From: Oscillospiraceae bacterium Zagget6
GTDB lineage: Bacteria; Bacillota; Clostridia; Oscillospirales; Oscillospiraceae
DNA length: 35,609 bases
Direction of reading: 5' to 3'
Assembly (NCBI GenBank): GCA_001941075.1
Contig: MSHH01000008.1
Coordinates: forward strand, 1-35,609
Positions 24,178-35,609 of the stretch are shown piece by piece. Made by a program: the position numbers and the translations under genes. Numbering within the stretch: the first letter of the stretch is position 1; every line of letters starts with the position of its first letter. Under the pieces are notes generated by a model. That model was not told the DNA's origin. It ran no database searches and saw only the letters and a list, made by a program, of their open reading frames with translations.

Positions 24178-24852
24178 ATGGCAATGCACAAAAACAGGCT
24201 GCTCTTTACCAAGAGCGGGCGGGCCTGCTACATCTCCCACCTGGACCTGATGGCCACCTTCCAGCGGGCGTTTCTCCGCTCCGGGGTGGAAATTTGGCAG
24301 ACCGAGGGCTTCAACCGCCATGTGTTCGTCTCCATCGCCCTGCCCCTGAGCCTGGGGTACTCCAGCGACTGCGAGATTCTGGAGTTCAACCTGGAGTCCC
24401 CCTTCTCCTTCGACGAGGTGGTGGAGCGCCTGAACCGCGCTCTGCCCGAAGGAATCCACGTCCGGGAGTGCTACGAGGCGAAGATCCCCTGCAAAAAAAT
24501 CGTGGACCTGGACTGGACGGTGACGCTGGAGTACGATGACGGCGTACCCACCGCAGCTCCCGCCGCCCTGCGGGAACTGCTGGGCCGGGAGAGCTGCGTC
24601 ATTCAGAAGAAGTCCAAAAAGGCCAAAAAAGGCTACACGGAGCTGGACATCATCCCCATGGTGAAAAGCTGGTCCCTGGAGGAACAGCCGGACAAGCTGA
24701 TTTTCTCCGCTCGCCTGGCCGCCCAGAATCCGGGGCTGAACCCCGCTCTCATCATCGACACCCTGGCGGCGGAAACGCCAGCGGCCAAACCGGACTTCGT
24801 GCGGTGCCACCGAAACGAGGTCTACGGCGAAGGCGGCGTGGTGTTCCGTTGA
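24178..24852 (+). CDS. TIGR03936 / DUF2344 family protein
   Basis: 224 residues. The start NRLLFTKSGRACYISHLDLMATFQRAFLRSGVEIWQTEGFNRHVFVSIALPLSLGYSSDCEIL is the DUF2344 signature, with a conserved His-Leu-Asp (SHLDLM) and a sulfur-poor globular fold. It works with the preceding TIGR03960 radical SAM protein; in some Clostridia the two are fused. The ATG at 24178 follows a CGGAGG site; a second ATG two codons later is possible. Function unknown. RNase G and rplU, which follow in many Clostridia, are not here. Confidence 0.87.
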   Translation: MAMHKNRLLFTKSGRACYISHLDLMATFQRAFLRSGVEIWQTEGFNRHVFVSIALPLSLGYSSDCEILEFNLESPFSFDEVVERLNRALPEGIHVRECYEAKIPCKKIVDLDWTVTLEYDDGVPTAAPAALRELLGRESCVIQKKSKKAKKGYTELDIIPMVKSWSLEEQPDKLIFSARLAAQNPGLNPALIIDTLAAETPAAKPDFVRCHRNEVYGEGGVVFR

Positions 24853-25177
24853 ACCATCTTCCCTACCCCCTGCGGCGCGGTTTCCCGGAGCCTGACCGGG
24901 ACGGCGTCACAGGGGTTCTTTGTGCGCTTTTGTAGCCCCCAGAATTTGTTATCCTTTTCCCGTAGAAAACCATCCTATTTCTGTTCAAATTTACTCTTGT
25001 TTGCGGCGTATCTCCTGTGCTATACTGCTTTCGATTATAGGTGGAAATCACCTTATCATTGCGGCATACAGAACACAAAACAGGTCATAGTGCCTGTCAG
25101 AACTGCGTACCGTCATTTGATAAACACGCGCAAACAGCCAACCACTGTGGGACCTTCGCAACATATGAGGTGGTTTT
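24853..25177 (+). promoter_or_regulatory. 325-nt gap with promoter of the two-component system
   Basis: Contains a small stem CCCGG/CCGGG at 24884-24900 without a T run, then an AT-rich stretch. TTGTTT (24997-25002) and TATACT (25021-25026) are separated by 18 nt and make a reasonable promoter, about 145 nt before the response regulator ATG. No clear LytTR 9-mer pair was seen here, so autoregulation is not supported. No ORF of note. Confidence 0.55.
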
Positions 25178-25924
25178 ATGCATTTCGTCATCGTAGAGGA
25201 TATAGAGGCAGACAGGAAGCATCTGATGGATCTCATCAAGAGCGACTGCGCCGCCCACGACGAGCCTGCGGAATTCTCTGTTTACTCCAGCGCGGAGGAT
25301 TTTCTGGCGGACTTCCGCCGGGGGTTTTGCAGCGCTGTTTTTCTGGACATCATGCTGGGCAAGGGCATGACCGGCATTGACGTGGCCTGGAAGATTCGGG
25401 AAAAGGACGAATACCTGCCCATTGTTTTTACCACCACGGAAAAGGGCTTTGCCCTGGACAGCTACGGCATCCACGCCCTGGATTTCCTGGTCAAACCCAT
25501 TCAGCCGGAGGCCATTCCCTGGTGCATGGCGCGGCTGCGGGAGGCGGCGGCTTCCCCGGAATACCTGGACGTCAAGGGAAAAGACACGGACGGAAGAGCG
25601 CTGCGCACCCGAAGCGTTTTGCTGGAGGAGCTGATCGACATCGAGGCCGTCCCACGGGGCTGTGTGCTTCACACTGCGTCTGGAGACGTGTTCACGGCGC
25701 AGAAGCACGGAGAACTGATGGATCTGCTGCCAAAGACCGGGCGCTTTTATGAGTATGCCCGCGGGATGTCTGTCAACTTCTCCTTCGTCGTCTCCATCAG
25801 CTCCAAAGGAGACATCTATTTGAAGGACGGACGCCGCCTTTTTTGCAGCAGGCGGAAAACAAAGGACACCATCGAGGCATACCAGCGGTTTCAGTTTGTG
25901 CAGCTGCGCACAAAGGGGGTTTGA
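25178..25924 (+). CDS. LytTR-type response regulator
   Basis: 248 residues: a receiver domain (1-125) with acidic residues Glu7 and Asp8, phosphoacceptor Asp57 in FLDIML, and Lys106 in FLVKPI, then a C-terminal domain (about 140-245) of the LytTR DNA-binding type, with ELIDIEAVPRGCVLHTASGD, the FYEYARGMSVNFSFVVSIS stretch and GDIYLKDGRRLFCSRRKT. This is the AgrA/ComE class, which binds tandem 9-bp repeats. The kinase follows with 2 nt between stop and start. No AgrB or AgrD-like gene lies next to it. The start has a GAGGTGG site. Likely target: the promoter at 27397-27425. Confidence 0.9.
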   Translation: MHFVIVEDIEADRKHLMDLIKSDCAAHDEPAEFSVYSSAEDFLADFRRGFCSAVFLDIMLGKGMTGIDVAWKIREKDEYLPIVFTTTEKGFALDSYGIHALDFLVKPIQPEAIPWCMARLREAAASPEYLDVKGKDTDGRALRTRSVLLEELIDIEAVPRGCVLHTASGDVFTAQKHGELMDLLPKTGRFYEYARGMSVNFSFVVSISSKGDIYLKDGRRLFCSRRKTKDTIEAYQRFQFVQLRTKGV

Positions 25925-25926
25925 AG

Positions 25927-27243
25927 ATGGAAAGGTTTCTGGCCGTATTCTGCTTCGCAACGGCAGGTACTCTCCCCTACCGGGTACTGGCCTATTATCC
26001 CTTCCGGAAGCAGCTCCGTTTTCCCATCTGGACTGTCGTTCTGATCATTGGCATCGCCCAGCTGGCCCAATCGTTCCTTTATGCGCTGCTGTCGGCGCGG
26101 GGCGGCAACGGAGTGACCCTCATAGAGGGCATCTTTGCGCCGGCCTGCTTTGTCATCTACTGCATCTGCATCCGGGCAGACCGCTGGAAGGTGCTGTTTC
26201 TTTACATCTTTGTCTTTGACTACATCTCCCTGGTGTGGGGGACAGCGCGATACCTGGAGTGTCTGCTCTTTTATAACCCTGATATGACCTTCGACACGCT
26301 GCGAAGCATGGTGTTCCAGTTGATTATCCTGGGCGTGACCGTCCCGTTCGTCACGTTGTTCCTGAAGCGCACCAAGGACAAAGTGTTCTCGACGGAGGCG
26401 CCCTCCTTCTGGCATGTGATTTGGATTTTGCCGACTCTGACCACGTTGATCGTCCAGCTCTACAACGGAAATCATACCCCGCAAAACGTGCATCAGTTCC
26501 GGTTTTTCCTGGCCTACGTGCTGCTGTTTCTGGACATGGTCGCCGTGTACGGTGTCCTGCTCCGGGCGCTGGACATCATCCTCCATGAGGCCGCACTGGA
26601 GGAAAAGGCCACCCAACAGGAAAACCTGCTGGCCCTTCAGCGCACCCAGTACAGCCAGATCGCCCGCTACATGGACGAGACCCGGCAGGCCCGGCACGAC
26701 CTGTCCCAGCACCTGCGTCTCATCAACCAGTACCTGAGCACCGGGGACCAGGACGCCCTCCGAGAGTATGTGGAACGCTATCAGGAGGCCCTGCCACCGG
26801 AACGGACCGTCTTTTTCTGCAAAAACTACGCCGTCAACACCATCCTCTGCTACTATCATGAAGAGGCGCTCCAATCCGGCATTGACTTTTCCGCTGGCCT
26901 GGACCTGCCGGAGACGCTGCCCATCAGCGAGCCGGAATTTTGCTCTATGCTGGGCAACCTGCTGGAAAACGCCCTTCTCTCCTGCCGGGAGGAGGTCGAG
27001 GCGGCTCCCTTCATCCGCGTTCTGGCAAAGACCCAGGGGGACACGCTGTTGCTGGCCATCGACAACACCTGCCTGCGGGAACCGACCTGGAAGGATGGAA
27101 AGCTCTGTTCCTCCCGGCATGACGGGTTCGGGCTGGGGACGGCTTCCGTGCGTACCATCGCCTCCAATCACAACGGCGCGGTCTTTTTCACCTGGGAGGA
27201 CGAGGTGTTTTATGCCTCGGTGTCGCTGGCGCTGCCCCATTGA
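25927..27243 (+). CDS. GHKL-type sensor histidine kinase (AgrC-like)
   Basis: 438 residues. The N-terminal half (about 1-215) is hydrophobic with several membrane segments, consistent with a peptide-sensing membrane domain like AgrC. The phosphoacceptor is His257 in QARHDLSQHL, the RHDxxxH pattern of the HPK10 class. The ATPase part has the N box NLLENALLSC near 345 and a GFGLGTASV glycine motif near 400. It partners the upstream LytTR regulator. The frame is open 28 codons upstream within the regulator gene, but the ATG at 25927 gives the natural start with a hydrophobic N-terminus. The signal is unknown. Confidence 0.9.
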   Translation: MERFLAVFCFATAGTLPYRVLAYYPFRKQLRFPIWTVVLIIGIAQLAQSFLYALLSARGGNGVTLIEGIFAPACFVIYCICIRADRWKVLFLYIFVFDYISLVWGTARYLECLLFYNPDMTFDTLRSMVFQLIILGVTVPFVTLFLKRTKDKVFSTEAPSFWHVIWILPTLTTLIVQLYNGNHTPQNVHQFRFFLAYVLLFLDMVAVYGVLLRALDIILHEAALEEKATQQENLLALQRTQYSQIARYMDETRQARHDLSQHLRLINQYLSTGDQDALREYVERYQEALPPERTVFFCKNYAVNTILCYYHEEALQSGIDFSAGLDLPETLPISEPEFCSMLGNLLENALLSCREEVEAAPFIRVLAKTQGDTLLLAIDNTCLREPTWKDGKLCSSRHDGFGLGTASVRTIASNHNGAVFFTWEDEVFYASVSLALPH

Positions 27244-27357
27244 GGTCCCGTGAAAGGGGGACCAATATCGACGCGGTCTGGCAGAAGATACGGCTGTTCG
27301 ACTATGGCAAACTATACAAAAATATTACATAAAACGCTTTGAGTTTTGGAACCGCTT

Positions 27358-27386
27358 ACCGTTTACGCAGGATTTTGACCGTTCAG
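27358..27386 (+). promoter_or_regulatory. Tandem LytTR-type operator
   Basis: Two direct 9-mers, ACCGTTTAC (27358-27366) and ACCGTTCAG (27378-27386), lie 20 bp start to start, about two helical turns. The second fits the published LytTR consensus [TA][AC][CA]GTTN[AG][TG] at every position, the first at all but the last. They end 10 nt before the -35 box, as in AgrA- and ComE-activated promoters. Confidence 0.6.
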
Positions 27387-27396
27387 GCAAAATCCC

Positions 27397-27425
27397 TTGA
27401 AAAAACTCCTCCAAAATGGTACATT
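27397..27425 (+). promoter_or_regulatory. Promoter of the PqqD/HprK/exporter operon
   Basis: TTGAAA (27397-27402), 17-nt spacer, TACATT (27420-27425). The imperfect -10 suits an activated promoter. The gap from the kinase stop (27243) to here holds no gene; a short stem GGTCCC/GGGACC near 27244-27264 follows the kinase but lacks a T run. A stem GCACC/GGTGC lies right after the -10 in the leader. Confidence 0.6.
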
Positions 27426-27498
27426 AAATGCACCGTGGGGTGCCTGGAGAATGCGGCGCACTGCCCCAAGCCCCATGAACCAGGAACGGAGGGGGAAG

Positions 27499-27951
27499 AT
27501 GGTTCGGTTTGTGATTTACGCGGATTGCGAGTGCGAGGAGGATATCAGAACGTTGATTCCCCTTCTCCGCGATGCGGCCCGCAGTCGGGGCAAGTGGGCC
27601 CTTATCCAACCTTATATTGGATGGGACGCGCTGCCCCGATACCTTTCCTTTGTCAAGCGGAACCCTTATCTGGTCATGGTCGTGGCGACACGCGGCAAAC
27701 GCGGACGGGAAACTGCCGCTAGGATTCGGGAGAACAACCCTCTTGCCCGGATGCTCTGGTTCTCTGACCCGGACAACGGCGTGTACTCCTATCGGATCCA
27801 TGTGACCTGCTTCGGCCTGCTCCCTCCCACCCAGGAGGGCGTCGCTCTCGCCCTGGACGCCTGTGGCCTATCCTCTGGGGAGCCAGCGGCGGACGGCGAT
27901 GGCGCAAGACAAAGCACCTCTCCTGCGAGGACTGACCCGGAAAACCGATGA
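27499..27951 (+). CDS. Degenerate receiver-like protein without DNA-binding domain
   Basis: 150 residues from ATG 27499, after a GGAGGGGG site. It is not a recognised family. The layout resembles a response-regulator receiver: MVRFVIYADCECEED start, a strand NPYLVMVVAT near residue 55-64 where the phosphoacceptor would sit, a helix GRETAARIREN, a strand ARMLWFSD, and FGLLPPTQEGVALAL where receivers have a KP motif and the last helix. The phosphoacceptor Asp (about 61-63) and the Lys (about 107) are both absent, so it cannot work as a normal receiver. The last 25 residues are polar and probably disordered. First gene of the operon; overlaps the next ORF by 53 nt. The receiver link is inference from pattern only. 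Confidence 0.55.
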   Translation: MVRFVIYADCECEEDIRTLIPLLRDAARSRGKWALIQPYIGWDALPRYLSFVKRNPYLVMVVATRGKRGRETAARIRENNPLARMLWFSDPDNGVYSYRIHVTCFGLLPPTQEGVALALDACGLSSGEPAADGDGARQSTSPARTDPENR

Positions 27952-28051
27952 AGCGCTGATTGCCCTGTGGCTGCGAATCTCTGCGGCTGCGGGGCTGATT
28001 GCTTACAGGGCAAAAACGAAGTTGAAATCGGAAAGGACGCTGACAGCATGA
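27899..28051 (+). CDS. Small ORF, candidate precursor peptide
   Basis: 50 codons from ATG 27899, beginning MAQDKAPLLRGLTRKTDEAL and continuing with a hydrophobic stretch (ALIALWLRISAAAGLIAY, about 19-36) and a basic tail ending SERTLTA. It fills the gap between the receiver-like gene and the PqqD gene, with a 4-nt ATGA overlap to the latter, the same coupling as PqqD to HprK. The ribosome binding site is weak (GCGGACG). No Cys and no Gly-Gly leader. A small membrane or amphipathic peptide, or a RiPP precursor, are both possible. It has no recognised family and could be a chance ORF. Confidence 0.4.
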   Translation: MAQDKAPLLRGLTRKTDEALIALWLRISAAAGLIAYRAKTKLKSERTLTA

Positions 28052-28314
28052 AGATGACGAAAAACTATATCCTGCGGGATGTTGGCGGACGCTGTGTCGC
28101 CGTCCCGGTTGGGGGCGAGTGCCAACAGTTCAGCGGCTTTATCAAGCTGAATGAAACCGCGAAGCTGATTTGGAAATCCATTGAAGCGGGCTGCACAGAG
28201 GAGGAGACCATTGCCAGTCTGACAGCCCAGTACGATGTGACGCCGGAACACGCCAGAGACGCCTACCGAAACACGGTGGAGCAGCTTCTGTCTCTGGGAG
28301 CGGTTGAGCAATGA
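28048..28314 (+). CDS. PqqD-like peptide-recognition protein
   Basis: 88 residues of the PqqD family, the RiPP recognition element fold that binds leader peptides and hands them to modifying enzymes. Conserved features are the start YILRDVGGRCVAVPV, GFIKLNETAKLIWKSIEAGCTEEETIASL, and the end ARDAYRNTVEQLLSLGAVEQ. It overlaps the small ORF upstream and the kinase downstream by 4 nt each. No radical SAM or lasso cyclase partner is in the window. A start two codons later is possible. Stand-alone PqqD proteins are common in lasso peptide and radical SAM clusters, and its neighbours suggest a peptide substrate. Confidence 0.87.
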   Translation: MKMTKNYILRDVGGRCVAVPVGGECQQFSGFIKLNETAKLIWKSIEAGCTEEETIASLTAQYDVTPEHARDAYRNTVEQLLSLGAVEQ

Positions 28315-29027
28315 GCCATACCGTTTTGTCCATCGCCGGAGTGCCGGTGGGGGTGGAGCATCGATCCCCCCTTGATTCCTGGAACTGCGGCGGCCACGAA
28401 ACCGGGGCAACGCCCTGCTATACGGTTTCGGCGGGAGAGGACGAGGTACAGGCGGAATGGGAGCGGCTGCACCGTCGGTTCACCCGAAACGCCTGCGAGG
28501 GCAACTGCCTGTACCGCAAGGTCTGCCTGGGGATGCTGGATTATGACGGCTTCCTGCTCCACGCCGCCGCAGTTGCCGTTGACGGGGCGGGGTATGTGTT
28601 CACCGCGCCCGGCGGCACTGGAAAGAGCACCCACGCGGGGTTCTGGATGGAGGAATTTGGCCCACGGGCGGTGATGGTGAACGGCGACAAGCCCATCCTG
28701 CGGCGGCTGGACGGCAGTTTTTTCGTCTGTGGTTCCCCCTGGCGGGGCAAAGAACGCCTGGGCAACGGGGATATGGTCCCCCTGCGGGCGGTTTGCCTGC
28801 TGGAACGCGGGGCGGTGAACGAGGTCTACCCCGCCGACATCGACACGGTGCTGGATAAAATCTTCCGCCAGGTGCTGATGCCGGAAACGCCGAAGCAGGT
28901 CATTCTACAGCTCGACCTGCTGGACTGCCTCATTCGGCAGGTCCCGGTGTATCGTTTGCGGTGCAATTTGTCGAAAAACGCCGCAATGACTGCTTATCGC
29001 GGCATTCACCAAAGTCAGGGTGTGTGA
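28311..29027 (+). CDS. HPr kinase-like (HprK-type) ATP-binding protein
   Basis: 238 residues. Walker A is APGGTGKST with Lys105; the following VMVNGDKPILRR has the Asp-containing pattern of HprK (N/D-D-K-P), and FVCGSPWRGKERLGN is typical of the shorter HprK-like proteins next to PqqD genes. The HPr-binding N-terminal domain of true HprK/P is missing, so the sugar-regulation role is unlikely. In the paeninodin-type lasso clusters a related kinase phosphorylates the precursor peptide; here the substrate may be a peptide or polysaccharide component. ATGA overlap with PqqD, 1-nt gap to the exporter. Confidence 0.85.
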   Translation: MSHTVLSIAGVPVGVEHRSPLDSWNCGGHETGATPCYTVSAGEDEVQAEWERLHRRFTRNACEGNCLYRKVCLGMLDYDGFLLHAAAVAVDGAGYVFTAPGGTGKSTHAGFWMEEFGPRAVMVNGDKPILRRLDGSFFVCGSPWRGKERLGNGDMVPLRAVCLLERGAVNEVYPADIDTVLDKIFRQVLMPETPKQVILQLDLLDCLIRQVPVYRLRCNLSKNAAMTAYRGIHQSQGV

Positions 29028-29028
29028 C

Positions 29029-31218
29029 ATGGAGAAGAGCAATGCCCGGCAAACCGGCAGGCTGGACGAACTGGAATCCGAGGGCTTTCTGGTTATCCCC
29101 ATCAAAGGGGTCAGTATGCAGCCGCTGCTGTACGCCTGCTCCTCCCACGTCCTCATCCGCCGACTGGACGAAAGGCCGAAGAAAAATGATGTGGTGTTGT
29201 ATGTTCGTCCAGATGGTACACAGGTGCTGCACCGGGTCATAAAGTTCGACGGCGACGTTTGCCTCATCCGGGGGGACAACACCTTTGCCCTGGAACGGGT
29301 GCATCTGTCTGCCGTCAAGGGCGTTATGGAGACGGTGTGGCAGGGTAACCGGGAAATTCACGTCACCGATTTTCTCTATCGGCTGTATGTCTGGTTCTGG
29401 AACTTGATTTATCCCCTGCGCCTGCTGAAACATCAGGCAAAAATGGGGCTGCGGAGCCTCGGCAAACGGCTGCTGGGCGACACCTCCCTGGCCTGGGTGG
29501 TCAGGATGGCCCGGGGCGATCTGCCCGGGATCGCCCTGCTGACGGCTTGTACAGGAATCAGCGCCTTTCTGTCCGTTGTGCTGGCCCTGGTCATGCGCAG
29601 CGCCATTGACAGCGCCGTTGCACTGGAGAGGGGCCTGTTCCTGCGCTGGAGCGGTGTTTTTTTGGGAATCATCCTGGCGCAGCTGGGCCTCCAGGCGGCG
29701 GTCCGCCAGCTGGACGAAAATATCCGGGCCTCCATTGAGAACCGGCTGAAGGAACACACCTATGAGAGTCTGCTCCGTAGCAGCTACAGCAGCCTGAAAG
29801 CCTTCCACACCGGCGAGCTGCAAAACCGCATGACCAACGACGTGAAGGTCGTGGCCGACTACGCCACGGACCTGATCCCCGGCGTCTGCTCGATGGCAGT
29901 TCAGCTTGTCTGCGCCCTGGTGGTCCTGCTGATTTTAGACTGGCGCTTCGGTAGCCTGTTCCTGGTGGGCGGGCTGGTCATGCTGGCTGTGACATTTCTG
30001 TTCCGGCGCAGGATGAAAGGCCTGCACAAAGAGGTGCAGGAGACCGACGGTAGGCTGCGCTCCTGGCTCCAGGAATCCATCGAAAGCGTCCTCATCCTCA
30101 AGAGCTTCGGGGCAGAGGGCATGGCGGCGGGCAGGACGGCGGAGAAGGCCGCCGCCCACAAAAAAGCCCGCATGAAACGAAGGACCTTCTCCAACGTCTG
30201 CAACGTGGGGTTTGGCGCGGTGATGCAGGGCAGCTACCTCTTTGGCCTGGTGTGGTGCGGGTTTGGCATTTTGAACGGCACCCTGTCCTACGGGACGCTG
30301 ACCGCTGTACTGGAGCTCATCAGCCAAATCAGAAGCCCCTTCGCCAACCTTTCCGGCTTTGTCCCTCACTATTACGCGATGCTGGCCTCGGCGGAGCGGC
30401 TGATGGAGCTGGAGCAACTGCCCAAAGAGGCGGCTCCCGCCAAAGCGCTGCCTTCCTTCACAAGCCTCCGCGCAGAGGACCTGACGTTTATCTATGACGA
30501 CGGCGAGGAGGAGGTCATCCAGAGCGCCTCCTTTGCCATTGAGCAGGGCGAAATTGTGGCCCTGACCGGTCTCTCCGGCATTGGCAAAAGCACCCTTCTG
30601 AAGCTCCTGCTGGGCATTTACGCGCCGGTGTCCGGTCGGCTGTACGCAGTGTGTGAAACCGGAGAGATTTCCCTCAGCCCCGCCACTCGCCGCTGGTTTT
30701 CCTACGTCCCCCAGGGCAATATGCTGCTCTCCGGCAGCATTTACGAGGCGGTTGACTTCCTACACGCCGCCCCGTACACCCAGGCGCAGCGGGAACGGGT
30801 GGAATGGGCCTGCAAGGTCGCCTGCGCGGACGAGTTCATCCGTCAGCTGCCCGACGGCTACGCCACCGTCCTGGGGGAAAAGGGCGCGGGTCTCTCCGAA
30901 GGACAGGTGCAGCGGCTCGCCATTGCCCGGGCGGTGTACCGTAGCGCGCCGGTGCTGTTGCTGGACGAGGCCACCTCCGCCCTGGACGAGGACACGGAGC
31001 GCAGGCTGCTGCGCAACCTGAAAGCGCTGGGCGGCCAGACGGTGTTAATTGTGACCCACCGGCCCGCCGTCATGGAGATTTGCGGCAAGCAGCTGGTCTT
31101 TGAACACGCGAATATCACGGTGCGCAGCGGCGAAAGTCACCCATGCGCACCGACAGACGGGGGCGGGAAATGTACGGCAGAAAAATCAAACTCCAAACCA
31201 TCCTCTGTGTCCTTCTGA
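29029..31218 (+). CDS. S24/S26-type peptidase domain fused to ABC exporter
   Basis: 729 residues from ATG 29029 (GTG 29020 also possible). Residues about 15-120 form a signal-peptidase-like domain with KGVSMQPLL (Ser29), a GTQVLHRVIK motif (His68) and LIRGDN (Asp83), which fits the Ser-His type used in archaeal/ER and SipW-like enzymes. Six membrane segments follow (about 160-430), then the nucleotide-binding domain: Walker A GLSGIGKS (Lys520), Q-loop VPQGNMLL, signature LSEGQ (622-626), Walker B LLLDEATSALD (Asp646), and the VTHR His. A peptide exporter with its own protease is suggested, like the C39 PCAT class but with another protease fold. The C-terminal tail overlaps the next gene by 76 nt. 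Confidence 0.88.
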   Translation: MEKSNARQTGRLDELESEGFLVIPIKGVSMQPLLYACSSHVLIRRLDERPKKNDVVLYVRPDGTQVLHRVIKFDGDVCLIRGDNTFALERVHLSAVKGVMETVWQGNREIHVTDFLYRLYVWFWNLIYPLRLLKHQAKMGLRSLGKRLLGDTSLAWVVRMARGDLPGIALLTACTGISAFLSVVLALVMRSAIDSAVALERGLFLRWSGVFLGIILAQLGLQAAVRQLDENIRASIENRLKEHTYESLLRSSYSSLKAFHTGELQNRMTNDVKVVADYATDLIPGVCSMAVQLVCALVVLLILDWRFGSLFLVGGLVMLAVTFLFRRRMKGLHKEVQETDGRLRSWLQESIESVLILKSFGAEGMAAGRTAEKAAAHKKARMKRRTFSNVCNVGFGAVMQGSYLFGLVWCGFGILNGTLSYGTLTAVLELISQIRSPFANLSGFVPHYYAMLASAERLMELEQLPKEAAPAKALPSFTSLRAEDLTFIYDDGEEEVIQSASFAIEQGEIVALTGLSGIGKSTLLKLLLGIYAPVSGRLYAVCETGEISLSPATRRWFSYVPQGNMLLSGSIYEAVDFLHAAPYTQAQRERVEWACKVACADEFIRQLPDGYATVLGEKGAGLSEGQVQRLAIARAVYRSAPVLLLDEATSALDEDTERRLLRNLKALGGQTVLIVTHRPAVMEICGKQLVFEHANITVRSGESHPCAPTDGGGKCTAEKSNSKPSSVSF

Positions 31219-32138
31219 GCGCTGTGTTTGCCTGCGCCCTGGGCTGGATGCTCTACACGGAATACCGCCAGGAGGCGGCGTTTTCCGCCGCAAGCCAGGC
31301 GCTGAAAGAGGAGGCAGCCCCCTATGTGACCCAACGGCAGGCGCTTTTGTCCGAGCTGGACGAGCTGGAGAGCAACGCCGCCTGTTTCAGCGACGAGGCA
31401 AGGTTCATGGTCGGGTTTCTCGTCTCGGATGTGTCGGACCTCTCTTACATCCGGGAAAAAGCGGAAACCTACGGCTTCTCCCCTGTGCTGGTCCTCGACT
31501 GTGCAATGGCGGAAACGGACCTGAAGCAGCTGCTCGACGCAGCGGAGGACCAGTGGGAGGTCATGCTTTACATATCTCCCTTTTCGGCGGAGACCAACGA
31601 CGACGTATTGGCTGCCCTCTCCTGTCTGGATTCCATCGGCAAAGAACACACCGGCGTTTTCTTCCTGCGGGATGAGGACAACAGCGACGCCAACGTTCAA
31701 CTGCTCCTGGAGGACGGGTTTCTGGGGTACACCAGTTACAGTGACACCCCTACCGCCGGGCAGACGGACGATGGGACAGTGTATTTTGACTATTCCTTCC
31801 TCAGCACGTCCGGCACAACAGTTGAGAGCAGGGTCGCCTTGCTCTATCAGAGCAGGGCATTTATGTTGATTGTGTTCGATATGGCAAGCATCGACGCCGG
31901 GACGCTGACGGAGAATTATGTGACCTCCCTTTTTGCGACGCTGCAAAACTACGCGCAGCAGGACGACTGCGCCTTTTCCACAGTAGCGGACGTGGTGGCC
32001 GAGCTTTCCACGGCCAACGCCGCCCAAGCAGCGGCGCAGGCGAATTACCAGGAGCAGGTCGCGGAGATCCAGGCGCAGCTCACCCGGCTGGACGAAACCA
32101 TCGACGAGATTTTTGGGCGGCTGCAAGGAGAAGCGTAG
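31143..32138 (+). CDS. Membrane-anchored extracytoplasmic protein of unknown function
   Basis: 331 residues with a basic N-terminus and one membrane segment (TILCVLLSAVFACALGWML, about 19-37), then an extracytoplasmic part. Segments such as YGFSPVLVLDCAMAETDLKQLLDAAEDQWEVMLYISPF (about 107-145) recall a polysaccharide-deacetylase-like barrel, but the metal-binding His/Asp motifs of active NodB enzymes are not visible. The last 50 residues (ANAAQAAAQANYQEQVAEIQAQLTRL) look coiled coil. Start could be ATG 31170 instead, with a better G-rich site. It overlaps the exporter end by 76 nt and precedes wzz. Function unknown; the deacetylase resemblance is weak. Confidence 0.6.
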   Translation: MRTDRRGREMYGRKIKLQTILCVLLSAVFACALGWMLYTEYRQEAAFSAASQALKEEAAPYVTQRQALLSELDELESNAACFSDEARFMVGFLVSDVSDLSYIREKAETYGFSPVLVLDCAMAETDLKQLLDAAEDQWEVMLYISPFSAETNDDVLAALSCLDSIGKEHTGVFFLRDEDNSDANVQLLLEDGFLGYTSYSDTPTAGQTDDGTVYFDYSFLSTSGTTVESRVALLYQSRAFMLIVFDMASIDAGTLTENYVTSLFATLQNYAQQDDCAFSTVADVVAELSTANAAQAAAQANYQEQVAEIQAQLTRLDETIDEIFGRLQGEA

Positions 32139-32142
32139 CTTC

Positions 32143-32228
32143 GGAAGTGCCGCCTGACGGTAGAGGACGAAACCAGCCACTAACTACTAACAACTGGAAA
32201 CGAAAGAAGTGCCGCTTGACGGCAAAGG
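32143..32228 (+). repeat. Two copies of a short palindromic repeat before wzz
   Basis: Copy 1 (32143-32165) and copy 2 (32206-32228) share the form GAAGTGCCG-CYTGA-CGGYA. Each folds into a 5-bp stem, TGCCG/CGGTA and TGCCG/CGGCA. Copy 2 ends close to the ribosome binding site of wzz (AAAGGAGGA, 32225-32233) and may affect it. A short AT-rich stretch (ACTAACTACTAACAACT) separates them. Confidence 0.7.
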
Positions 32229-32237
32229 AGGATACGC

Positions 32238-32978
32238 ATGAACGCCAACTCTTATCAGGCAGAACAGCAAATGCTGGATGCCGATACCATAGATATCGAC
32301 CTTCTCGCGCTGTTCCGGGCGCTGCTGAAACACGCATGGCTAATCATTGCCGTCACACTCTTTTTCGGCTGTGCAGGGTACATGGTCACGAAACTCGCAG
32401 TCACGCCGACCTATCAGACGAGTTTCAGCATTTACATCAACAACTCCACCCTCTCCAACATCAACACCATCACCTCCAGCGACGTCACCGCCTCCCAGTA
32501 CCTGGCGGAAACGGGGGCTGATGTCATCAACAGCAACAACACCAAAAAACTGGTTGCGGAAGAGGTCGGTCTCGAAGCGGAGGACATCTCCATCACCACC
32601 AGCGTGAAAACTGAAAGCGGCGTGATACAGGTCTCCGTCGTCACAACGGCCCCAAAGGATGCCTACGACTGCGGCGTGGCGCTGGTGGACATTGCCGCAG
32701 AGGAAATCGCCAGGGTCGTGGAGGGCAGCTCCGTGCAGGTGATCGATGTTCCTGAGCTGCCAATGAGTTTCTACCGGCCCAATTATCTCAAAAATGTGTT
32801 CCTTTGCATGGTGGTCGGCGCGGTTCTGTCCTTTGGCCTCATCGTTGTGCGGGAACTGCTGGACGACAAGGTGAAGAGCCGGGAGGACGTGGAAAACCAC
32901 TTTGACCTGGTCAATTTGGGATCGATCCCAGACATAACGCAAGCGCAGGGAGGGAAACATGAGTATTACGCTGGATAG
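32238..32978 (+). CDS. Wzz/CapA-type chain-length regulator (YveK-like)
   Basis: 246 residues. A short cytoplasmic start, first membrane segment (AWLIIAVTLFFGCAGYMV, about 33-50), an extracytoplasmic Wzz domain with YQTSFSIYINNSTLSN and TSSDVTASQYLAETGADVINS, then a proline-rich element (PELPMSFYRPNY, about 172-183) and a second membrane segment (NVFLCMVVGAVLSFGLIVV, about 187-205). This is the Firmicutes membrane adaptor that activates the CpsD kinase and sets polysaccharide length. It ends overlapping the kinase by 20 nt. A strong AAAGGAGGA site precedes the ATG. Confidence 0.87.
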   Translation: MNANSYQAEQQMLDADTIDIDLLALFRALLKHAWLIIAVTLFFGCAGYMVTKLAVTPTYQTSFSIYINNSTLSNINTITSSDVTASQYLAETGADVINSNNTKKLVAEEVGLEAEDISITTSVKTESGVIQVSVVTTAPKDAYDCGVALVDIAAEEIARVVEGSSVQVIDVPELPMSFYRPNYLKNVFLCMVVGAVLSFGLIVVRELLDDKVKSREDVENHFDLVNLGSIPDITQAQGGKHEYYAG

Positions 32979-33846
32979 AGAGCTGCTGCAAGAGTCAAGG
33001 GGCGCAGCGCAGGGAGCGCAGCGGAAGTGCCGCTCGACGGCAGAAGTACCCCTTGAGGGTACAGGGAGGGGCAAAGCCCCGGAAGTACCCCTTGAGGGTA
33101 AAACCGGAAAACGACATGGGAATTCCCGGCGCAGCGCCTTTGATTACATTTTGGGAGACGGGACCCCCTTTGCTGTTGACGAGGCATATAAGGCGCTGCG
33201 AACAAACGTGATTTTTTCTCTGCCCGGCGACGGCTCCAAGGTCATTGGTATCACCAGCTCGGCCAGCGGCGAGGGAAAGAGCACGGCAATCCTCAACCTG
33301 GCCATCGCCTTCGGGCAAATCGAAAATAAGGTGTTGCTCATCGACTGCGACCTGCGGCTGCCAACGATTGCGGAGAAGCTGGGGATCAAAGGGACCCCCG
33401 GCCTCAGCGATTTGCTGGTGGGCAGAAGCTGCCCCATTCGGCAGTTGACGGACGTCGGCATTTGCGTGCTTCCCTCCGGCACACTGCCGCCAGACGCGAC
33501 GACGCTGCTGTCCTCCGCTAAAATGGGCGAACTGCTGGCAGAAGCGCGCAAACACTTCGACTATATCTTTCTCGACCTGCCCCCTGTCACCACCGTCGCA
33601 GACGCCGCCATCCTCGCAAAACACGTGGACGGCTTCCTCCTCGCCATCAAACACCGTGGCTCCCGCTATGGCGCCATTGCTCATATGCTGGAGCAGCTCG
33701 CCCTCGCCGACGCAAACGTGCTGGGCTATGTCTACACCAACGCTCAGGAGGGCGGCGGTCACTACCGGCATTATGGCTACGGGTACGGCTATGGCTATGG
33801 CCGCAGCTACGAAAAAAGTCGTTCAAACGATCATTCCCCCGCGTGA
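32959..33846 (+). CDS. CpsD/CapB-type tyrosine protein kinase
   Basis: 295 residues. Bacterial tyrosine (BY) kinase with Walker A SASGEGKST (Lys107), Walker A' VLLIDCDLRLP, and Walker B YIFLDLPP, then a C-terminal Tyr/Gly cluster (HYRHYGYGYGYGYGRSY) that is autophosphorylated. It pairs with the upstream Wzz adaptor to control polysaccharide synthesis. Residues about 22-48, between the start and the kinase domain, are encoded by three copies of the palindromic repeat, giving EVPLEG twice (29-34 and 42-47); this linker is not part of the family. No phosphatase (CpsB/YwqE) or glycosyltransferase follows. The ATG at 32959 has an AGGGAGGG site. Confidence 0.92.
   Translation: MSITLDRELLQESRGAAQGAQRKCRSTAEVPLEGTGRGKAPEVPLEGKTGKRHGNSRRSAFDYILGDGTPFAVDEAYKALRTNVIFSLPGDGSKVIGITSSASGEGKSTAILNLAIAFGQIENKVLLIDCDLRLPTIAEKLGIKGTPGLSDLLVGRSCPIRQLTDVGICVLPSGTLPPDATTLLSSAKMGELLAEARKHFDYIFLDLPPVTTVADAAILAKHVDGFLLAIKHRGSRYGAIAHMLEQLALADANVLGYVYTNAQEGGGHYRHYGYGYGYGYGRSYEKSRSNDHSPA
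33023..33100 (+). repeat. Three palindromic repeat copies inside the CpsD reading frame
   Basis: Copies 3 (33023-33042), 4 (33043-33062) and 5 (33081-33100) have stems TGCCG/CGGCA, GTACCC/GGGTAC and TACCC/GGGTA around CTCGA or CTTGA loops. A further stem, GGGGC/GCCCC, lies between copies 4 and 5. All keep the kinase frame open. Confidence 0.75.
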
Positions 33847-33888
33847 CCGGTCCCCCGGACCGGCGCTCAAAAAAACCAATATCGTTCC

Positions 33889-33960
33889 GGCCCGGCTGGT
33901 CGCTTTCCCGGTGTGTTTCACATCACACATCCGAGGAGCGGTCAGCCGGGTCCTTTGTTT
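33889..33960 (+). terminator. Structured terminator after CpsD
   Basis: CCCGGCTG (33891-33898) pairs with CAGCCGGG (33943-33950), with partial extension, and is followed by TCCTTTGTTT. A nested stem GTGTG/CACAC lies in the loop. Just upstream, CCGGTCC/GGACCGG (33848-33864) forms another stem without a T run. Confidence 0.65.
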
Positions 33961-33987
33961 TCTACCGGAGAATTGCGTATAAATCCG

Positions 33988-34016
33988 TTGCTTTTCGGAA
34001 AAGCAGACGATACCAT
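33988..34016 (+). promoter_or_regulatory. Promoter candidate for the recombinase
   Basis: TTGCTT (33988-33993) and TACCAT (34011-34016) are separated by 17 nt; both differ from consensus at two positions. It lies after the terminator and about 80 nt before the recombinase ATG. No other feature is seen in this gap. Confidence 0.45.
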
Positions 34017-34094
34017 ATCCTTTACAGGCGCCCGCAGAGCTGTTCAAACCAGGAGGCTGCGGGAAACGCAAGTCTATGGAAAGAAGGCAAACAA

Positions 34095-35609
34095 ATGAGA
34101 ACAGAAAGAAACCCGAAACAGGTCGAAGATCAAAGGGTCTACCGGACGGCCCTCTATCTGCGCCTCTCCCGCGAGGACGGCGACAGAGGCGAGAGCGATT
34201 CCATCGCCAACCAGCGAAAGCTCCTCCAGGACTATCTGAAAGGCAAAAGCGAGTTCCTCCTGACAGGGGAATATGTGGACGACGGCTGGAGCGGCTCCAA
34301 TTTTGACCGACCTGGCTGGCGGCAACTCTACCGGGAGCTGGAGCAGGGCGTGGTCAACTGCGTGGTCGTGAAAGACCTGTCCCGCTTTGGCAGAAATTAC
34401 ATCGAGGTGGGCCGCTATCTTCAGGTGCTGTTCCCAATGATGGGGGTGCGGATGGTGGCCGTCAATGACGGCTACGACTCCCTGAACGACTGGCGGAACG
34501 GGGACGCACTGCTGGTGCCCATGAAGAACCTCATCAACGATCTCTACTGCCAGGACATCTCCCAAAAGGTCGCCACCCAGCTGGCCACCCTGCGCAAACG
34601 GGGAGAATGGGTTTCCGCCTTTGTGCCCTACGGCTACCAAAAGAACCCCTGTGACCACAGAAAGCTGGTGGTGGACGGCGACGCCGCCGCAAACGTGCAG
34701 CAGATTTTTCAATGGAAGCTGGAGGGGTATAGCAACCGGGGCATCGCAGACCGGCTGAATGGGCAGGGGGTTCTCTCCCCTTACGAGTACCAGACGGCGC
34801 AGGGCAGCCACGTGGCGGGCAACTTCAAACGCCACGACAAGGCAACGTGGTCCAGCGGCAGCGTGTACAGCGTCCTGCACAACGAGTGTTATACGGGGAC
34901 GATGGTGCAGGGCAAGTGGAAAAAGCGCAGTTATCGCTCCAAGGAGCTGATTCTCCTGCCGAGAGAGGAGTGGATCAGAGTGGAAAACACCCATGAGACC
35001 ATTGTGGACACGACGCTGTTCACGCTGGTGCAGGAGGTCATGAAAAAGGAAACCAGGACAGCCGGAGGCAAAGATCGTGTGCATTTGCTCTCCGGCTTTT
35101 TATTCTGCGGAGCCTGCGGCAGACAACTGACCATGCAGTCGTCCTACTACAAGGGCAAAAAGTACAGCTATTACACCTGTAAGGACTGCCGCGACGGGAG
35201 CAAAAGAACCAAGCGCGTCAGTGAGCAAAAGGCTTGCGCGGCGATTTTGGCGTCCATTCGGGAGATGGCGGAAACCGCCGCACAGGTGGAGGCGCTGGCG
35301 GCAGAGGTTGGTCCGCTGCCGGAGCAGGGAACGCTGGTCCAAAAACTCGATGGGCAGCTGGTACAGCTTCAGGACGAGCTGGAGCGCTACGTCACGCTCA
35401 AAGACGGGCTTTATCAGGATTACGTCTCCGGTCTCCTGAGCAGAGAGGAGTACAGAGACTATGCACAGCTTTACAGCGACAGGATCAAACGCGCAAAGGA
35501 ATCGCTGCGGTCTGTGGCAGAGGAACGCAGGCATCTGGTCAGCGCCTGCCGGGAGGCCAGGTGGATAGCGGACTTCAAGCCCTGCCGGAACCTGCCGAAT
35601 CTGACGCGG
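34095..35609 (+). CDS. Large serine recombinase (partial, cut by window end)
   Basis: 505 codons visible; the frame runs off the window end without a stop. The N-terminal resolvase domain has YLRLSRED with nucleophile Ser25, DSIANQR, and DLSRFGRNYIEVGRYL. The recombinase domain follows (about 160-300, with FVPYGYQKNP and SNRGIADRLNGQG), then a zinc ribbon with Cys338/Cys341 and Cys362/Cys365, and a coiled-coil C-terminal segment (LVQKLDGQLVQLQDELERY). This layout is that of TnpX/TndX and phage-type integrases of Clostridia. Start ATG 34095 has a GAAAGAAGG site. It suggests a conjugative or mobilizable element at this border; attachment sites were not identified. Confidence 0.9.
   Translation, partial: MRTERNPKQVEDQRVYRTALYLRLSREDGDRGESDSIANQRKLLQDYLKGKSEFLLTGEYVDDGWSGSNFDRPGWRQLYRELEQGVVNCVVVKDLSRFGRNYIEVGRYLQVLFPMMGVRMVAVNDGYDSLNDWRNGDALLVPMKNLINDLYCQDISQKVATQLATLRKRGEWVSAFVPYGYQKNPCDHRKLVVDGDAAANVQQIFQWKLEGYSNRGIADRLNGQGVLSPYEYQTAQGSHVAGNFKRHDKATWSSGSVYSVLHNECYTGTMVQGKWKKRSYRSKELILLPREEWIRVENTHETIVDTTLFTLVQEVMKKETRTAGGKDRVHLLSGFLFCGACGRQLTMQSSYYKGKKYSYYTCKDCRDGSKRTKRVSEQKACAAILASIREMAETAAQVEALAAEVGPLPEQGTLVQKLDGQLVQLQDELERYVTLKDGLYQDYVSGLLSREEYRDYAQLYSDRIKRAKESLRSVAEERRHLVSACREARWIADFKPCRNLPNLTR

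Follow-up and report, generated by a model that had tools for sequence, protein, structure and literature searches.

Linear polyphosphorylated peptides (LPP) are a family of ribosomally synthesized and post-translationally modified peptides (RiPPs) published in May 2026 (PMC13381572). Their genes are lppA, lppK (HprK), lppB (a RiPP recognition element, RRE), lppS (a SipW-like peptidase, S29/H68/D93), lppD (MsbA-like) and lppN (a nucleoside triphosphate (NTP) transferase). LppK phosphorylates a core serine, LppS with LppB cleaves the leader, and there is no cyclase. LPP clusters often lie in capsular polysaccharide loci, as reported for Bacilli, and the describing paper gives the role of the peptides as unknown (PMC13381572). 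Here we describe a related operon in Oscillospiraceae bacterium Zagget6. The DNA analyzed (the window, 35,609 nt) is the whole of contig MSHH01000008.1, our contig C8, from a 1.98-Mb genome bin of 86 contigs with 76.4% completeness. Positions 28048-33846 probably hold a variant of the LPP-type operons for maturation and export, extended by genes that control polysaccharide. Judged from LPP, the product is most likely a phosphorylated LPP-like peptide that is exported as one element of a LytTR-controlled surface programme, which also includes control of polysaccharide length. Its genes, which may be transcribed together, are:

28048-28314, + strand: lppB-like PqqD-type RRE (PF05402, 1.1e-13, 51.7 bits)
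28311-29027, + strand: lppK-like HprK-related kinase (distant NCBIfam matches, P-loop, NxDKP residues)
29020-31218, + strand: lppS-lppD-like fusion of a SipW-type S26 peptidase and an MsbA-type ABC exporter (residues, NCBIfam, AlphaFold)
31143-32138, + strand: membrane-anchored coiled coil with a CE4/NodB-fold domain, catalytic histidines not conserved
32238-32978, + strand: Wzz/CpsC-type polysaccharide co-polymerase (PF02706, 6e-16; TIGR01006, 2.8e-35, below its cut-off)
32959-33846, + strand: CpsD-type tyrosine autokinase (TIGR01007, 143.9 bits against a cut-off of 108.05)

These genes had been named in a preliminary description of the window, and all are confirmed on the + strand. They do not overlap throughout, as had been claimed. 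The PqqD and HprK genes overlap by 4 bases, HprK and the fusion by 8, the fusion and the anchored protein by 76 (if the latter begins at its first start) and Wzz and CpsD by 20, but a 99-bp gap separates the anchored protein from Wzz.

Judged by sequence, the PqqD protein, HprK-like kinase, S26 peptidase and ABC exporter correspond to LppB, LppK, LppS and LppD. The operon has a discrete PqqD-type RRE, an HprK-like kinase with a P-loop, an S26 domain with Ser/His/Asp and an MsbA-like exporter. We call it an LPP-like variant and not a strict member because an NTP transferase is not in the cluster. The combination, which the preliminary description could not place, thus matches machinery already reported in Bacilli capsule loci (PMC13381572). 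By the same analogy, its picture of RiPP handling without a cyclase, leading to a phosphorylated exported peptide, is plausible. A term search of the main text of the LPP paper finds neither ‘Clostridi’ nor ‘LytTR’, and the five places shown there for ‘fused’ or ‘two-component’ do not concern a fused peptidase-exporter (PMC13381572). Among the open-licence papers searched we met no S26-ABC fusion and no LytTR control of LPP.

The kinase has no Pfam match and only sub-cut-off NCBIfam matches (TIGR04249, 5.4e-5; TIGR04352, 0.0021; TIGR04355, 0.022), and its alignment to the sequences of solved structures gave no match. It has a P-loop at residue 101 and NGDKP at 124, and the GxGK and NxDKP residues are invariant across 23 aligned sequences.

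The fusion protein carries an SMxP serine (Ser32), an HRV histidine (His71), a GDN aspartate (Asp86) and a Walker A motif at 517. Pfam has no S26 match in it. In the S26 alignment the catalytic residues are Ser in 74/74 sequences, His in 74/74 and Asp in 73/74 with one gap, the same residue types as LppS S29/H68/D93. The top NCBIfam match of the exporter part is TIGR02203 (1.3e-70, below its cut-off). In one AlphaFold model (pLDDT 83.2) the N-terminus forms a beta domain of its own, and there are six long helices; the S26 domain is complete and lies ahead of the first of the exporter's six membrane helices. Ahead of the serine, none of 68 standalone S26 proteins has a 19-residue window of mean hydropathy >1.6. 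Fusions were called with a domain-only S26 model, since a whole-ORF model mislabelled many ABC genes as S26-ABC. It identifies fusions in the window and in L032, L033 and L044 (L numbers denote fetched loci); L171 and L172 were added by sequence, and L073 has an apparently frame-broken one. A different architecture occurs at L090:11008-13989, beside HprK and PqqD: an S26 domain, a membrane helix and a large extracellular region that by eye looks like a glycoside hydrolase.

By analogy with LPP, the PqqD protein would bind the YxxP leader of a small precursor and the HprK-like kinase would phosphorylate a core serine. The S26 domain, if it lies on the inner membrane face as we infer, would cut the leader there, directly at its fused exporter. 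Cleavage and export would thus be coupled, as in C39-type exporters, whose protease is unrelated. Beside the exporter, the CE4-fold protein may retain or sense polysaccharide at the surface, and Wzz and CpsD would set polysaccharide length.

We searched 148 related genomes, many with short contigs; counts within the window's genus refer to 32 genomes. G000 denotes the window's own genome, and G022, G026, G027 and G031 are related genomes. Relatives of the HprK-like kinase occur in 45 of the 148, plus at least 578 confirmed stretches across genome contigs. We compared 121 loci: the window, 40 stretches at 40 HprK places from the 148-genome search and the best 80 of the at least 578 stretches. 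Dropping two near-identical loci leaves 119. A partner was counted when on the same strand within about 6 kb of HprK; many loci end at contig breaks, and 66 of the 119 have 5 kb on both sides. The partners are PqqD (91), S26 peptidase (76), ABC (39), YxxP precursor (34), nucleotidyltransferase (32), radical SAM protein (17), Wzz and CpsD (9) and the anchored protein (7). The LPP-type set is widespread in gut Clostridia, and a YxxP-leader precursor often accompanies it. The neighbourhood survey proposed in the preliminary description thus supports the peptide half (PqqD at 91/119 loci, S26 at 76/119) and not a general attachment of Wzz and CpsD (9/119) or of the regulatory repeat described below, which is absent from the other fetched lpp loci.

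Precursors were found in 27/148 genomes. Thirty-two aligned sequences share the leader consensus MxxxYExPExEVIxFxxEDVIxTS, followed by variable tails; most are 31-61 aa, a few longer. Sister species (L033-L036, L044, L056) have the precursor next to the machinery and to a giant secreted protein, whereas these pieces are scattered in the window's lineage. G027 has one open precursor ORF (C51), unlinked to its operon, and a LytTR-type repeat starts 160 bp ahead of it. Over 492 columns, a 1995-aa giant protein of the window's genome (Glug, Flg_new) shares 47% identity with the precursor-adjacent giant protein of L044.

Several features of these precursor loci are recorded here as side observations. 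The giant secreted repeat proteins beside the precursor vary, with Flg_new in L044, a weak beta-helix in L056 and no Pfam match in L033. Acidic lipoproteins or membrane proteins with an LPxxP tail lie between the precursor and the kinase and RRE genes at L033:4673-5047, L034:3383-3793, L042, L131 and L142; in L142 the precursor itself ends NELPILPAN. This tail pattern, picked after being seen, occurs in 9/3874 near ORFs on the same strand (two of them short and noise-like), 1/5719 far ORFs and 1/4502 near ORFs on the other strand. In L064, L065, L066 and L070 a larger HprK variant and a radical SAM protein, which in L070 matches SPASM below its cut-off, accompany Cys-rich precursors. These precursors are ~85-90 aa long, have YEKP/YQKP leaders and may represent a crosslinked offshoot of this leader family.

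Control of the operon is best considered with the genes on its two sides:

25178-25924, + strand: LytTR response regulator, resident module (PF00072, 1.9e-10; PF04397, 9.2e-5)
25927-27243, + strand: GHKL (AgrC/SpoOB-type) histidine kinase, resident module (PF14501, 1.3e-10)
27358-27385, + strand: LytTR-type direct repeat ACCGTTTA-N12-ACCGTTCA, with 11 bp between its 9-mers and 10 bp ahead of the -35 element
27397-27425, + strand: promoter-like site of the receiver-like gene (TTGAAA-17-TACATT, with TGn) that the operon may have captured
27499-27951, + strand: receiver-like protein, a resident gene outside the peptide system, whose 3' end meets the insertion
27878-28047: left junction of the inserted block, with a small ORF (27899-28051) that is probably spurious and a stable hairpin; homology to the operon-free site ends at 27877
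34089-35609, + strand: large serine recombinase in the inserted block, reaching the contig end (PF00239, PF07508, PF13408)

The same chromosomal site lacks the operon in G022, of the same genus. There the order is M50 protease, radical SAM and DUF2344-like (by eye), then the regulator, the kinase and the receiver-like gene. In G027, homology to the operon-free site ends at C39:17033 and resumes at C39:3849. The ~13.2 kb block between lies directly behind the receiver-like gene and holds the operon, 89-91% identical in DNA to the window's and with its ORFs open, and three recombinase ORFs. Folding shows a hairpin behind the receiver-like gene in G022 (z -3.74), and the far junction of G027 has a corresponding one (z -2.57). 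The terminator scan does not list the G022 hairpin, and we do not call it a terminator because it has no clear U-tract. Gain of the operon by insertion is the simplest reading: the block would have been inserted, with serine recombinases, between the receiver-like gene and its trailing hairpin. With the insertion behind the receiver-like gene, the operon may therefore sit under a LytTR-controlled promoter.

The receiver-like gene and the LytTR/GHKL pair are thus a resident response regulator-histidine kinase module and not part of the peptide system, in which the preliminary description had placed the receiver-like gene. Its ORF has no Pfam or NCBIfam match. Strong matches occur in 5/148 genomes and weak ones in 2; G031 and G026 carry the gene in divergent orientation to the regulator, with no operon adjoining it. 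The small ORF 27899-28051, also assigned to the system earlier, straddles the insertion junction and is probably not a gene. As a precursor candidate it was rejected: it lacks a YxxP motif, and its N-terminal frame is lost in G027. tblastn found no relative beyond G027 in the fetched loci searched.

In LytTR-regulated promoters, 9-mer repeats spaced by 11-13 bp lie about 10 bp ahead of the -35 element (PMC6193735), and the direct repeat at 27358-27385 agrees in both spacing and distance. This repeat, also denoted the ACCGTTNA repeat, precedes the receiver-like gene in all five module genomes with small changes. Its pattern has 14 sites in the five whole genomes (reversed control, 0), five of which are the orthologous receiver-like promoters that gave the pattern. 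TTG follows exactly 11 nt after the repeat in 14/14; of these, 13 have a best spacer of 17 bp and 12 carry TGn. The promoter at 27397-27425, which we take to be the one predicted in the preliminary description, is the same in operon-free G022 (L178 8747-8775). It gains weight because it is kept in an operon-free genome at a fixed distance to a conserved repeat.

Five of the 14 sites precede the receiver-like gene and three precede large secreted proteins; two lie before extracellular contractile injection system (eCIS) genes and two before Mbeg1-like genes, and one each before a signal peptidase-pilin-sortase operon and the unlinked G027 precursor. Pfam was run on one example each (the 1995-aa protein of the window's genome; the signal peptidase, pilin, sortase and Mbeg1-like protein of G027; and the G026 eCIS core); the others were named by eye. 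The giant protein carries the repeat in both the window's genome and G027, the precursor in G027, and the machinery would be reached through the receiver-like promoter. The genes with eCIS core domains lie at G022:C172 (L186) and G026:C93 (L187), with Pfam run on L187 only; contractile injection genes are a possible part of a surface regulon of gut Clostridia.

Within the genus the repeat pattern occurs in 8/32 genomes (17 sites, control 0). A close regulator (E <= 1e-60) is present in 5/32; all five have sites and together hold 14 of the 17. A hand calculation puts the probability that all five belong to the eight by chance at 2.8e-4; it treats related genomes as independent, which they are not. 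By this co-occurrence the regulator is a candidate to bind the repeat. Control by the LytTR/GHKL pair, as first proposed, is therefore plausible on sequence grounds, by capture of the operon into a LytTR surface regulon. Since presumed regulator sites also precede the precursor, giant proteins, pili and eCIS, the peptide would be part of a surface programme.

From this we draw a wider reading, held tentatively and nearly as likely to be right as wrong: LPP peptides of gut Clostridia would be parts of a surface programme, not free-standing antimicrobials. Here an LPP-plus-capsule block, an unlinked precursor, giant Glug/Flg_new proteins, pili and injection genes would be switched by one LytTR/GHKL pair. 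Pieces that are clustered in sister species (giant secreted protein, precursor, maturation and export genes) are scattered here but would be tied by a shared promoter element, and the exporter is fused with a signal-peptidase-type leader protease, which would be intracellular. The shared promoter element would let the role of LPP be tested directly, by asking which surface property depends on the precursor.

Several observations weigh against the main reading, an LPP-type operon under LytTR control. Two models found no precursor in the window contig or in the 76.4% complete genome; the best window matches, from one model, have E 8.5 and 17. A Pfam scan of the operon proteins found no nucleotidyltransferase (PF14907). 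Foldseek ranks a viral turret, and not a deacetylase, first for the CE4-fold protein. Wzz/CpsD linkage is a minority arrangement, at 9/119 loci and 9/66 with full flanks. Loss in G022 instead of gain is possible, and the far end of the insertion lies beyond the contig and is placed from G027. A stable hairpin at 27940-28060 (about 14 pairs, no U-tract, z -2.55, 1/200 shuffles as stable) could hinder read-through into pqqD. The consensus scan of 24850-34150 does not by itself bear out the predicted promoter: its 3 promoter-like sites compare with 3.0 (sd 1.8) in shuffles, a chance level that makes it uninformative alone. The -10 elements of the repeat-linked promoters match at just 3-4/6 positions. 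One site occurs in each of three genus genomes that lack a close regulator; these sites adjoin more distant relatives of the regulator and kinase but do not show the promoter geometry. A weight matrix found no weaker repeat copies in 2.23 Mb of fetched loci, so the repeat is absent from the other lpp loci fetched and LytTR-type control would be special to few species.

The first alternative, the model of the preliminary description, concerns purpose and is compatible with the main reading: the exported phosphopeptide may be a signal that tunes, or may physically join, the polysaccharide controlled by Wzz and CpsD, which would explain the shared operon. We regard this as possible, though somewhat doubtful. 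With one split HprK fragment of G028 dropped, a Wzz relative lies <=5 kb from 8 of 64 HprK places against 0.50 expected from even placement, uncorrected for ancestry. Among the 33 strongest places there are 4 against 0.19 expected, two of the four being closely related genomes with the same insertion. The link to surface polysaccharide in the preliminary description is thus plausible. Its two halves lie apart in most loci compared, an outcome that it had named as refuting and that counts in part against it, although they are closer than even placement would bring them. In L056, L076, L097 and L144 the HprK-S26 set is surrounded by genes named by eye as CpsB, LCP, sugar transferase or epimerase, and capsule loci are reported for LPP in Bacilli (PMC13381572). 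Conversely, 110/119 loci have no Wzz/CpsD within about 6 kb (57/66 of those with 5 kb on both sides), and a Pfam scan found no glycosyltransferase among the operon proteins.

The anchored protein also bears on this link. It occurs with both halves and, in G031 (no HprK match), directly 3' of a CpsB-like gene. Its predicted structure has a CE4/NodB fold. CE4/NodB deacetylases require a metal-binding histidine pair. No such pair was found here, no histidine being present in more than 5 of 10 aligned sequences, and the protein is probably without deacetylase activity. Six CE4-fold proteins gave no polysaccharide-deacetylase Pfam match down to E 10, and the protein had no match among the sequences of solved structures.

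A second alternative is that the operon came to lie beside the regulator only by chance of where it was inserted, and has its own unrecognized promoter and no LytTR control. The repeat's promoter exists without the operon, other fetched lpp loci lack the repeat, and the hairpin at 27940-28060 separates the receiver-like gene from pqqD. This hairpin may be an attenuator or a remnant of the insertion junction. We nonetheless find the accident unlikely. The scan lists no promoter-like or terminator-like site on the + strand between 27499 and pqqD, and the unlinked G027 precursor has the same repeat and promoter geometry.

Third, the block could be a decayed LPP remnant that lost its precursor and nucleotidyltransferase, is now a cassette for polysaccharide regulation (Wzz, CpsD and the CE4-fold protein) and has its peptide genes on the way out. 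That no precursor was found in the 35.6-kb contig or the incomplete genome fits this, as does the lack of a nucleotidyltransferase in the operon. The window's frames are open with catalytic residues kept, the G027 operon is likewise open at 89-91% identity, and G027 retains an open precursor ORF under the same promoter type. These make decay quite improbable.

Finally, although HPr kinase, PqqD and nucleotidyltransferase genes occur in rumen lasso clusters (PMC7533575), we reject as very improbable that these are lasso-peptide tailoring genes with a cyclase and B2 protease elsewhere: within the limits set by short contigs and contig breaks, PF13471 (B2) has no match in G000 or near HprK places in the 148 genomes, PF00733 (Asn-synthase/cyclase) has none in the operon proteins and matches in 13 genomes only on other contigs or hundreds of kb from HprK, and the S26 protease occupies the place of B2, so the lasso cyclase that the preliminary description said would refute its proposal was not found.

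With the LPP-like surface programme as the preferred reading, the operon can be set beside known systems. It resembles the lppAKBSDN clusters of Paenibacillus alginolyticus in its discrete RRE, HprK-like kinase, MsbA-type exporter and lack of a cyclase, and shares with LPP clusters a SipW-type S26 leader peptidase with Ser/His/Asp and a frequent capsule-locus setting (PMC13381572). It differs in the peptidase-exporter fusion, in having no adjacent precursor or nucleotidyltransferase, and in adding a CE4-fold protein, Wzz, CpsD and a LytTR-type site. The Clostridial leader motif YxxPxxEVIxFxxEDVIxTS also differs from the LPP motif YxxPxVLxHQxIxFETxxS (PMC13381572).

Phosphorylated lasso clusters of the paeninodin type share the RRE, HprK-like kinase and ABC exporter, with a YxxP-like leader in relatives, but here no macrolactam cyclase or B2 protease was found. 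PqqD and HprK are perhaps also linked with exosortase loci in Proteobacteria. As in the CpsC/CpsD (Wzz/BY-kinase) capsule regulators, Wzz and CpsD are split and in tandem; unlike them, the window's pair lies inside a peptide-export operon without glycosyltransferases. The repeat matches LytTR-regulated direct-repeat promoters in its 9-mers separated by 11 bp and its place 10 bp before the -35 element (PMC6193735), but the half-site here is ACCGTTNAN and the downstream genes encode giant secreted proteins, a pilus, eCIS and an LPP-like precursor.

The fusion is closest in plan to the C39 peptidase-containing ABC exporters (PCAT), which likewise carry a leader peptidase at the N-terminus of a half-size ABC exporter. 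4ry2, which we take to be a PCAT, is matched by ABC similarity only. The protease of the window is of the S26 SipW type, unrelated to C39, which suggests that the coupling of a protease to peptide export arose a second time, independently.

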